From Candidatus Doudnabacteria bacterium (GTDB taxonomy: Bacteria; Patescibacteriota; Doudnabacteria; UBA920), in the NCBI GenBank assembly GCA_016788665.1, contig JAEUSF010000010.1:1-36061 (forward strand): a stretch of DNA of 36,061 bases. Direction: 5' to 3'. Shown here piece after piece: positions 28,611 to 31,749 of this stretch; positions within the stretch are counted from its first letter, which is position 1, and every line of letters starts with the position of its first letter. The notes beneath the pieces were generated by a model. That model saw only the letters and a program-made list of their open reading frames with translations, was not told where the DNA came from and did no database searches. The position numbers and the translations under genes were made by a program.

Positions 28611-28638
28611 TTGCATTTTTTTTAAGCGTAAGTATAAT
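28611..28638 (+). promoter_or_regulatory. promoter of the putative small RNA before rplI
   Basis: TTGCAT (28611-28616) and a perfect TATAAT (28633-28638) are 16 bases apart. Initiation near 28645 would place the transcript start at the first stem of the structured segment. Confidence 0.65.
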
Positions 28639-28644
28639 AAAAAA

Positions 28645-28740
28645 GAGCCCAAAAATACCAGCTGGCTCCGCAGAGCGCGGGGTTGGTAATTGGTTGAATT
28701 AAAAGGGCTGGGACTCTCGCTAGAAAAGCGGGATTTTTTT
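28645..28740 (+). ncRNA. putative structured RNA or attenuated rplI leader
   Basis: The segment has a promoter, a folded body and a terminator, with no credible open reading frame. AGCCC (28646-28650) pairs with GGGCT (28705-28709). Inside it TACCA (28656-28660) pairs with TGGTA (28684-28688), continuing to CCGC (28668-28671) with GCGG (28677-28680) and the loop AGAGC. A terminator follows: TCTCGCT (28715-28721) with AGCGGGA (28727-28733), then seven Ts. It lacks the SRP RNA core and tRNA or tmRNA landmarks. The AGGGCTGGGAC stretch before the terminator faintly recalls a T-box, but the body is too short. It may be an independent RNA of about 95 nt or a riboswitch-like leader of rplI. Confidence 0.6.
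28715..28740 (+). terminator. intrinsic terminator of the putative small RNA
   Basis: A 7-bp stem (TCTCGCT with AGCGGGA, one G-U) around the loop AGAAA is followed by TTTTTTT. It lies 85 bases before the rplI ATG, so read-through or a second promoter is needed for rplI. Confidence 0.8.
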
Positions 28741-28802
28741 ATTAAAAGGCAACCAGCTAGTTGAGTTTGGGTGCAGTGGTTTTTAATAAAAGTTTCAGTA
28801 TT

Positions 28803-28808
28803 TATAAT
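28803..28808 (+). promoter_or_regulatory. possible -10 element for rplI
   Basis: A TATAAT at 28803-28808 has a T-rich -35 region. It would give a very short or leaderless rplI mRNA starting near 28815, independent of the upstream terminated transcript. Confidence 0.35.
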
Positions 28809-28824
28809 ATACTCCAGCAATTTT

Positions 28825-29271
28825 ATGAAAATAGTTTTTACTAAAGATAGTCTGGGCCATGGGAAAAAGGGAGAGGTAAAAGAAGTAAGCGAGGGATTTG
28901 CTAAAAACTTTCTTATTTCCAAAGGCGTAGCTCAAATTGCAACTCCGCAAATAATTTCTAAGATTGAAAAAGAAAAACGCGAGGCAAAAAATAAATCTGA
29001 CAAAGAGTTTGCGCGCTTAACCGCGTTAAAGGCGGACATGGAAAAAAGGACTTTCGTAATCCCGGTTAAAGTCGGAGAACGGGGGCAGGTTTATGGTGGT
29101 GTGCATGAAAAAGAAATAGCCAAAATTATTTCAGGTAAGCTAAACGTGGAAATCGATAGAAATAAAATTCAAATTGTATCTGCTATTAAGTCTTTGGGTG
29201 AGCATGGTGTGAAAGTGGATTTAGGCAGTGGTGTTCAAGCAACTATAAAGGTGGTAGTGCAGGCATTGTAA
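28825..29271 (+). CDS. rplI: 50S ribosomal protein L9 (bL9)
   Basis: bL9 is an elongated ribosomal protein that limits collisions and frameshifting. From the ATG at 28825 it has 148 residues starting MKIVFTKDSLGHGKKGEVKE. The N-domain pattern (GFAKNFLISKGVAQIAT) leads into the long connecting helix and the C-domain (GQVYGGVHEKEIAKII, GEHGVKVDL). The frame stays open to a GTG at 28771, but those codons lack the family pattern. bL9 is missing in some CPR lineages, so its presence is informative. Confidence 0.96.
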   Translation: MKIVFTKDSLGHGKKGEVKEVSEGFAKNFLISKGVAQIATPQIISKIEKEKREAKNKSDKEFARLTALKADMEKRTFVIPVKVGERGQVYGGVHEKEIAKIISGKLNVEIDRNKIQIVSAIKSLGEHGVKVDLGSGVQATIKVVVQAL

Positions 29272-29292: not shown

Positions 29293-29985
29293 ATGGATTC
29301 ATTTGTTCCTTATAACCAAATAGAATATCCGAAGTCCAGCTTAAATAGCTTACTGCTTATTTTAATTGCTACGCTTTTTGCAAGCGGGGCGGCCTTAATA
29401 GTTTTGAGGCAAATAGATACCTATCATAGAGATCAGCTATATTTAGCCCAGGAAGCTTCTTTGCCAACTCATAAAGCGCCTTCGCTTTTTAGTAAAAGGC
29501 TCTCTTCCGATGCCTTCGCGAGTGAAAATCAGAGTGTTACAGAGCGTTGGGTAAGCTATAAGGCTGTAAATTTTAATTTTGAGTTCAAGTGTCCGCCCGC
29601 CTGGGAGTATTCGGCCTTAAAGAACGCCTCTTCTGGTGCTGAGGTTGCCTTTTATTGTACAAAAGCGCAGACTCGCGTAGGCGTGCTTCCTTTGGGTGGT
29701 TTCGGCTATGGGCTACCTTCGGAAAAACCCAAAGTTGGGAGTGCTATTTTAGATGGTAACGAGGTTGTTAAGGTCTCCTGGTACGATTGGAATGAATTTA
29801 ACCCGCACCGAACCATTGAAATTTACAAATTTATTTCATCCCCGAATCTATGGACGGCGTGTAGTAATCAGGTGAATATTTTTTCAGGCAGTAACGATTG
29901 TAATCGAATTGAAATTTTGGCGGAAACAGAGCTGGATTACTTGGAGGCAAAAGACATACTTTCAACTTTTAAGTTTATTAAATAA
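29293..29985 (+). CDS. membrane-anchored extracytoplasmic protein of unknown function
   Basis: The 230-residue protein has a short polar N-terminus, one membrane helix (LLLILIATLFASGAALIVL, about residues 20-38) and an extracytoplasmic domain of about 190 residues. The domain ends in DILSTFKFIK, a tail often seen in small CPR surface proteins of PsbP-like or lipoprotein-like type. Four cysteines are present in the outer domain. The ATG at 29293 is preferred to a TTG two codons upstream. The function is unknown. Confidence 0.75.
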   Translation: MDSFVPYNQIEYPKSSLNSLLLILIATLFASGAALIVLRQIDTYHRDQLYLAQEASLPTHKAPSLFSKRLSSDAFASENQSVTERWVSYKAVNFNFEFKCPPAWEYSALKNASSGAEVAFYCTKAQTRVGVLPLGGFGYGLPSEKPKVGSAILDGNEVVKVSWYDWNEFNPHRTIEIYKFISSPNLWTACSNQVNIFSGSNDCNRIEILAETELDYLEAKDILSTFKFIK

Positions 29986-30060: not shown

Positions 30061-31749
30061 ATGGTAAAAATTAGCAATACAAAGTTAGATAAAAAATCTG
30101 CAAAGAGTTTAAAAACAAAATTTATTTTTATATCAGGCGGAGTTATTTCAGGTATTGGAAAAGGTATAACCTCAGCGTCAATTGGGGCTATCTTAAAATC
30201 AAAAGGTTATAAGGTAAGTGCGGTTAAGGTGGATATGTATTTAAATCAGGACGCGGGGACAATTCGCCCACAAGAGCATGGCGAAGTTTTTGTAACTGTC
30301 GATGGTATAGAGACCGACCAGGACTTGGGTCATTATGAGCGTTTCATAGGGGAGCCTATTTACAAGCATAATTATGTTACTACCGGTCAAATTTATGCCG
30401 AGGTATTGCGTAAAGAAAGAGCGTTTGAGTATGAGGGTGAGGATGTGGAAGCTATACCTCATGTCACAGATGAGATAATACGCCGCTGGGAAGTAGCTGG
30501 TAAAAACTATGATTTCTGCTTAGTTGAACTGGGAGGTACGGTGGGGGAATATCAGAACGGTATATTTTTTGAGGCAACCAGAATTATGAAATTGCGTGAT
30601 CCTTACTCAGTGTTGCATATACATGTAGCTTACTTGCCAATACCTTCTTATTTAGGCGAAATGAAGTCTAAGCCAGTCCAGCAGTCTGTTAGGGTTTTAA
30701 ACAGTATGGGTATTGAACCCGATATAATAGTAGGACGTTCTAGTGTGCCGATTGACGAAAGAAGAAAAGAGCGCGTGGCGCTGTTTTGTAATGTGGATAA
30801 GACCTGTGTTCTTTCCAATCCCGACGTTTCCAGTATTTATGAGGTGCCTGTAATTTTAGAACAGCAAAAAGCTGGCGAAATAATATTAGAAAAATTTGGC
30901 ATTAAGCCAAAAAAACAAGATTTGAAAGAATGGAAGAAGCTTGTCCAGACAATCAAAACTATAAAGAAAGAAGTTAAAATTGCGGTTGTTGGCAAGTACT
31001 TCGGGGTCGGCAAATTTCAGCTTAGTGACTCTTATGTTTCTGTTATCGAGTCTATTAAACATGCAGCGTGGGCAAACAAGGTTAGGCCGGTTTTAACTTT
31101 CATAGATTCTGTTGAAGTGGAAAAAAAGGGTGCAAAAGATGTTTTGCAGGGTTTTCACGGAATTGTAGTTCCGGGCGGTTTTGGAAAGAGGGGTACGGAG
31201 GGTATGATTAAAACAATAGAGTATGCACGTGTTAATAAAGTGCCATATTTAGGGTTGTGTTATGGTATGCAGATGGCGACTATTGAGTTTGCCAGGAATG
31301 TGGCCGGGCTTAAGGGTTCCAATACGACTGAGGTGGATGAAGATAGTGCTCATCCTGTTATTCACATTATGCCTGATCAGGAAAAGAAACTTTTAAATCG
31401 GGAGTACGGAGCTACGATGCGTTTAGGGGCATGGGATTGCGTTCTGGCGCGTAAAACTAAGGCAGAGCAATGCTATGTCGCCGGTGGTGTTATAAAGGCA
31501 AGCGGGAAAGCGTTGATTTCAGAAAGACACCGTCATCGTTATGAATTTAATAACGCTTACCTAGAACAGCTCACCAGCGCGGGCTTGATAGTGTCAGGAA
31601 CGTCACCCGATGGGAATTTGGTGGAAATTATTGAGGTTAAAGACCATCCATTTTTTGTGGGGTCCCAGTTTCACCCAGAATTTCAGTCTCGTCCGCTTTT
31701 GCCCCATCCTTTGTTTAGTGGGTTTATGAAAGCGGTCGTAAAAAAATAA
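30061..31749 (+). CDS. pyrG: CTP synthase
   Basis: PyrG aminates UTP to CTP using glutamine. The synthetase domain has the P-loop region SGGVISGIGKGI and EHGEVFVTVDGIETDQDLGH. The glutaminase domain carries the nucleophile C400 in GLCYGMQ and the pair H538/E540 in FHPEF. Divergent features are KVDMYLNQDAGTIRPQ instead of the usual KLDPYxNVDxGTM pattern and GGTVGEYQN instead of GGTVGDIES. The 562-residue length is normal. It is probably its own unit with a shared terminator behind it. Confidence 0.95.
   Translation: MVKISNTKLDKKSAKSLKTKFIFISGGVISGIGKGITSASIGAILKSKGYKVSAVKVDMYLNQDAGTIRPQEHGEVFVTVDGIETDQDLGHYERFIGEPIYKHNYVTTGQIYAEVLRKERAFEYEGEDVEAIPHVTDEIIRRWEVAGKNYDFCLVELGGTVGEYQNGIFFEATRIMKLRDPYSVLHIHVAYLPIPSYLGEMKSKPVQQSVRVLNSMGIEPDIIVGRSSVPIDERRKERVALFCNVDKTCVLSNPDVSSIYEVPVILEQQKAGEIILEKFGIKPKKQDLKEWKKLVQTIKTIKKEVKIAVVGKYFGVGKFQLSDSYVSVIESIKHAAWANKVRPVLTFIDSVEVEKKGAKDVLQGFHGIVVPGGFGKRGTEGMIKTIEYARVNKVPYLGLCYGMQMATIEFARNVAGLKGSNTTEVDEDSAHPVIHIMPDQEKKLLNREYGATMRLGAWDCVLARKTKAEQCYVAGGVIKASGKALISERHRHRYEFNNAYLEQLTSAGLIVSGTSPDGNLVEIIEVKDHPFFVGSQFHPEFQSRPLLPHPLFSGFMKAVVKK

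Follow-up and report, generated by a model that had tools for sequence, protein, structure and literature searches.

A probable CTP-sensing attenuator with an AG-repeat start upstream of rplI and pyrG in Candidatus Doudnabacteria

Positions 28611-28740 of the window (the whole 36,061-nt stretch of Candidatus Doudnabacteria DNA that was analysed) hold a promoter, a short leader and a terminator just ahead of rplI, the gene for ribosomal protein bL9, and the question is what such an arrangement controls. A sequence-only reading had described a separate transcription unit and offered two options, a free small RNA or an attenuator for bL9. The element is probably a CTP-sensing attenuator of an rplI-ORF-pyrG operon that operates by AG slippage. 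This assignment is based on its anatomy, its conservation, its occurrence as a single copy, its linkage to pyrG in two distant groups, the exchange of its start site with the GGGC type in Bacilli, and calculated pairing specificity. The features used below are as follows, in window coordinates.

28611-28616, + strand: -35 hexamer TTGCAT, read from the sequence, with a 16-nt spacer to the -10
28633-28638, + strand: -10 hexamer TATAAT (TATA[AC]T conserved in relatives)
28644-28649, + strand: AGAGCC, proposed slippery start (AGAGC in 24/24 compiled Doudnabacteria leaders)
28644/28645, + strand: predicted transcription start, within AGAG
28648, + strand: first C of the predicted transcript, directly after AGAG
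28650-28709, + strand: species-specific spacer with local hairpins, not conserved, absent or different in relatives
28710-28718, + strand: GGG-A-CTCTC, proposed antiterminator partner (pairing model; CTCTC conserved in Doudnabacteria)
28710-28712, + strand: GGG, proposed to pair with CCC 28648-28650, A28713 bulged (pairing model)
28714-28718, + strand: CTCTC, proposed partner of (AG)n at the 5' end (pairing model)
28715-28733, + strand: intrinsic terminator TCTCGCT-AGAAA-AGCGGGA, with T-run (T7) at 28734-28740, from a search for terminator-like sites
28825-29271, + strand: rplI (bL9), first gene after the leader (Pfam Ribosomal_L9_N, 6.6e-15; Ribosomal_L9_C, 2.8e-20)
29293-29985, + strand: open reading frame between rplI and pyrG, without a Pfam match
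30061-31749, + strand: pyrG (CTP synthase), proposed control target (Pfam CTP_synth_N, 2.3e-98; GATase, 5.5e-33)

The promoter hexamers were confirmed by direct reading, and the terminator scan ranked 28715-28740 as the strongest terminator-like site nearby on the + strand. The leader occupies about 75 nt between the -10 and the terminator, and RNA folding gave z = -2.8 against shuffled sequences for 28642-28745 and z = -2.9 for the leader body alone, so the earlier description of an own transcription unit with a predicted transcript of about 95 nt holds. Three features had been overlooked: AGAGCC at 28644-28649, CTCTC at 28714-28718, and pyrG (30061-31749), which belongs to the same run of genes. 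A TATAAT lacking a good -35 lies at 28803-28808, between the terminator and rplI, and is a possible weak second promoter.

As had been claimed, no tRNA or tmRNA match was present in the window. The covariance-model check that had been proposed was performed with Rfam, and no family reached its gathering threshold in the window (ribosomal leaders, riboswitches and small RNAs included); the sub-threshold matches obtained at a relaxed threshold look like chance. The pyrG leaders of ten Bacilli loci gave no Rfam match either, and the negative covariance searches are explained by this lack of a match even at the tested pyrG leaders.

The proposed comparison of rplI upstream gaps was also carried out. 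The genome that contains the window comprises 1.06 Mb in 36 contigs. When the whole 181-nt stretch was searched against the DNA of relatives, no long similarity was found, and it was the weak matches of this search that led to the conserved pieces. A leader was present in 24/25 rplI-bearing Doudnabacteria (Patescibacteria) genomes of families f1 and f3, and these 24 leaders were compiled (19/20 f1 genomes with rplI and 5/5 f3 genomes). They share a frame in which TATA[AC]T and AGAGC are separated by five A-rich bases; a spacer of about 3-65 nt leads on to CTCTC, part of the terminator 5' arm, and the remainder of the hairpin, a U-run and rplI follow. In many relatives TTGACA or TTGCA occupies the -35 place. 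Across both families the rest of the leader drifts while the -10, AGAGC, CTCTC and the terminator stay. The multi-stem body of about 65 nt that had been called closed folds better than shuffled sequences but is not kept in relatives, and conserved body stems were rejected, while the start-site motif and the terminator are conserved. An alternative fold, in which GGCAACC 3' of the terminator (at 28748-28754, one base off its earlier placement) would pair with an internal GGTTG, was likewise dropped because sequence 3' of the terminator is not conserved. The f3 leaders are only about 35 nt long (AGAGCCAAAACCTCTCCTTCCGAGAGGCC). In genus g7, AGAGC is kept, the following CCC is replaced by TTC and the GGG before the arm by GAAG, so that these leaders carry AGAGCTTC with GAAG-TA-CTCT.

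A pattern of the -10 plus AAGAGCC was used to scan 49 genomes and occurred as a single copy, upstream of rplI, in each matching genome; the reversed-pattern control gave 1 match in the 49. A looser pattern placed the f3 matches likewise just upstream of rplI. Families f2, f4, f5 and genus g5 are without the leader, with rplI close behind ftsX or simply no such leader. Among 380 Patescibacteria genomes, matches outside the order had no CTCTC terminator leader, and a GGGC-type pattern produced three matches in 2 genomes, no better than its reversed-pattern control. The window and all Doudnabacteria leaders start with AGAGC and have no GGG run at +1 to +3, and membership in the B. subtilis GGGC/poly-G subtype was rejected on this ground.

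Wherever rplI and pyrG were found on a single contig in a genome of the order, pyrG lay behind rplI in the same orientation, and the terminator scan of the window found no terminator-like site between the two. The leader is that of a probable rplI-ORF-pyrG operon, whose co-transcription is predicted from gene order. In several relatives the short distance from the terminator to the rplI start codon leaves little space for a second promoter, and the genes there would depend on read-through. The distance between rplI and pyrG is about 0.7-1.7 kb in many f1 relatives, and the intervening open reading frame of the window, which is unannotated, has one N-terminal hydrophobic stretch.

The same element was sought without regard to genes in one genome per species from about 85,000 species, using the -10, AGAGCC, CTCTC and the T-run. 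The scan returned 39 matches, of which 14 precede rplI(-pyrG) in Doudnabacteria, 17 lie directly before pyrG and 8 are unrelated or background; 31/39 thus precede rplI(-pyrG) or pyrG directly. The 17 pyrG matches come from records labelled Bacilli, Mycoplasmatota, Acholeplasmataceae, Clostridium or similar, with no rplI in between. When 12 Bacilli-type genomes were searched whole, each contained exactly one match, and the loci listed place it before pyrG. In many Bacilli the element stands directly before pyrG without rplI, which makes pyrG and not bL9 the common factor and CTP the state most likely to be sensed. A bL9-specific leader is accordingly not supported: the earlier attenuator option was right in kind and probably wrong in naming bL9.

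For comparison of start sites, 70 Bacilli pyrG upstream regions were collected and classified by script, yielding 33 GGGC leaders (27 kept after poor terminator calls were dropped) and 21 AGAGC leaders. GGGC and AGAGC occupy the same place, between the -10 and the terminator. In 24/24 Doudnabacteria leaders the first C follows the -10 at a distance of 9 nt, and this is also the modal value for both Bacilli classes (15/21 AGAGC and 17/27 GGGC). In the shared register the base before GAGC is A in 21/22 cases, so the AG repeat is kept. One Bacilli leader (L187) reads AGAGAGC, and an AGAGC leader also occurs in a cultured organism, the Mycoplasmatota strain zrk6 (L124).

The B. subtilis pyrG start is reportedly GGGC, and its G-run is said by Meng, Turnbough and Switzer (2004) to pair with the terminator arm. 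The element described here resembles this type of attenuator in its sigma-70-type promoter, its repetitive purine start with the first C a few bases in, its intrinsic terminator with a pyrimidine 5' arm and its proposed control of pyrG. It differs in having an AGAG dinucleotide repeat instead of GGG and a CTCTC arm that suits (AG)n, and in Doudnabacteria it belongs to a patescibacterial host and precedes rplI as the first gene of a probable pyrG operon. In the proposed mechanism, AGAG|C would be the site of transcription initiation. When CTP is plentiful, the polymerase would pass the first C, the terminator with its 5' arm UCUCGCU would form, and transcription would stop near 28740. With scarce CTP, the polymerase would stall ahead of the first C, and the nascent AGAG could slip back by one repeat on the TCTC template and be lengthened by a further AG, so that an (AG)n extension builds up at the 5' end. 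By pairing with CUCUC (28714-28718) ahead of synthesis of the 3' arm, this extension would block the terminator, and the ensuing transcription of rplI and pyrG would restore CTP.

Two sources describe CTP-sensitive reiterative transcription at B. subtilis pyrG, where pyrimidine starvation leads to extra G at the start and attenuation is prevented (PMC4448216, PMC4403831). G reiteration is established at B. subtilis pyrG and reported at streptococcal pyrG, and di- and trinucleotide reiteration occurs in vivo (PMC4448216; PMC6431027; PMC4403831), including dinucleotide (AU) reiteration recorded in S. agalactiae (PMC4448216). No report of regulated AG reiteration was found in the literature searched, which is not proof of absence. 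Reiterative transcription is also listed for pyrBI, carAB, codBA and upp of E. coli (PMC4448216). The proposed switch would resemble these in reading a nucleotide pool through slippage at the transcript start. The E. coli genes slip on mononucleotide runs, and their slipped products are mostly discarded instead of serving as antiterminators.

If a slippage-made (AG)n is the antiterminator, a good fit to (AG)n is expected of the arms behind AGAGC starts, and to poly-G of those behind GGGC starts. A [CT]TCTC arm was found in 19/21 AGAGC compared with 10/27 GGGC Bacilli leaders (Fisher p 2.5e-4, with leaders that share descent), and CUUUCC-like and GUCUCC arms occurred only with GGGC starts. The preference in duplex energy for (AG)5 versus G10 differed from that of the GGGC class in Doudnabacteria (p 7e-5) and in AGAGC leaders of Bacilli (p 1e-3), although relatedness by descent makes these p-values optimistic and useful as guides only. 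Partial transcripts cut before the terminator 3' arm were then folded. In the window, capture of the arm was 0.15 without an extension, 0.99 after addition of a single AG and 0.23 with AC. In AGAGC leaders (AG)5 performed better than shuffled A5G5 extensions, and in GGGC leaders it performed worse. In full-length equilibrium folds the terminator was still favoured in many leaders despite added AG; the effect was in the right direction and AG-specific but modest in Doudnabacteria, and small in both Bacilli classes. The switch would therefore have to act co-transcriptionally, through kinetics; the known GGGC class is equally weak in this calculation.

The alternatives differ in what they make of the conserved pieces. 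An attenuator that answers to CTP without dinucleotide slippage is unlikely but the most serious of them. Here the CTP level would act at AGAGC, on pausing or on the choice of start site, and the antiterminator would be formed by the templated AGAG(CCC) itself, paired with (GGG)ACUCU. The linkage to pyrG suits it, pairing of AGAG-CCC with GGG-A-CUCU is feasible in f1, and the g7 replacements amount to a matching change. In some AGAGC leaders, AGAG already pairs with the arm before any AG is added, and mean arm capture at n=0 is 0.41 in Doudnabacteria and 0.81 in Bacilli AGAGC leaders. The extra pairs are absent, however, from the minimal f3 leaders and from genome G007, unextended full-length folds mostly form the terminator, and the replacement of GGG plus C by the AG repeat plus C at the same position is left unexplained. 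The preferred reading of AG slippage has difficulties of its own, the pairing of some leaders without added AG among them: after a slip of two bases, a 4-nt hybrid would retain only 2 bp, the leader is missing from f2, f4, f5 and g5 even though most of these have rplI-pyrG, and the weak TATAAT at 28803-28808 could allow terminator-independent expression in this genome.

Autogenous control, with bL9 or another ribosomal protein binding the leader, would account for the position immediately upstream of rplI in all Doudnabacteria leaders, and an intrinsic terminator before a ribosomal protein gene is shared with the L10, L19, L20 and L21 leaders of Rfam. Unlike those leaders, this one has no Rfam match, a conserved part that is not a protein-binding structure, and linkage to pyrG. 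Since Bacilli carry this element ahead of pyrG with no rplI between (17/39 scan matches), a simple motif search found no AGAGCC/GGACTCT mimic in the genome's own 23S rRNA, and no structure is conserved for protein binding, this explanation is very improbable. A free small RNA, the other option of the earlier note, would here be an independently functioning transcript of about 95 nt with a constitutive terminator, and is to be regarded with equally strong doubt. It would make use of the own promoter and terminator and of the favourable fold, but its body is not conserved and has shrunk to a few nucleotides in relatives, and in several of these a second promoter could scarcely be accommodated ahead of rplI.

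The wider proposal, held on balance and with less assurance than the assignment of the locus itself, is that the RNA polymerases of distantly related bacteria, Doudnabacteria and Bacilli/Mollicutes relatives, use regulated (AG)n slippage at the transcript start as a CTP sensor that writes its own antiterminator. This would be a second alphabet of the pyrG switch, one that has alternated with poly-G over evolution and, in Doudnabacteria, is linked to a ribosomal protein gene. The switch type is known; the AG repeat, the rplI-pyrG gene run and the patescibacterial host would set this form apart. If correct, nucleotide sensing by transcriptional stuttering would not be limited to one-base runs and would reach the Patescibacteria, in which gene regulation is almost unknown; CTP supply would be tied to bL9 expression in one gene run; and a simple sequence rule (repeat, first C and matching pyrimidine arm) would be available to find switches.

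Several minor observations were made in the collected regions. Eight Bacilli pyrG leaders (L090, L096, L097, L102, L112 and L121-L123) are only about 47 nt long and have a Shine-Dalgarno-like GGAGG that directly follows CTCTC and is itself followed at once by the T-run and ATG. In these, pairing of (AG)n with CTCTC might also expose the ribosome-binding site. Of two other Bacilli pyrG upstream regions, L245 has AGAGC with a long CTCTCTC arm, and L219 has a CTCTCTC arm with a GAGGGT start region that is possibly a further start-site type. In genus g5 of f1 (G004, G011 and G015), only G011 has rplI, without the leader; no bL9 gene was found in G004 and G015, and an in-frame TGA interrupts the pyrG match of G004. 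In f2 (L076, L077 and L078, from G022, G047 and G030, respectively), a long inverted repeat, ATCCCGTTAGAAATT...AATTTCTAA(A)CGGG-ATG, lies upstream of rplI with its closing arm abutting the start codon. The repeat occurs twice in G030, looks like a repeated hairpin element and could hide the rplI start codon.
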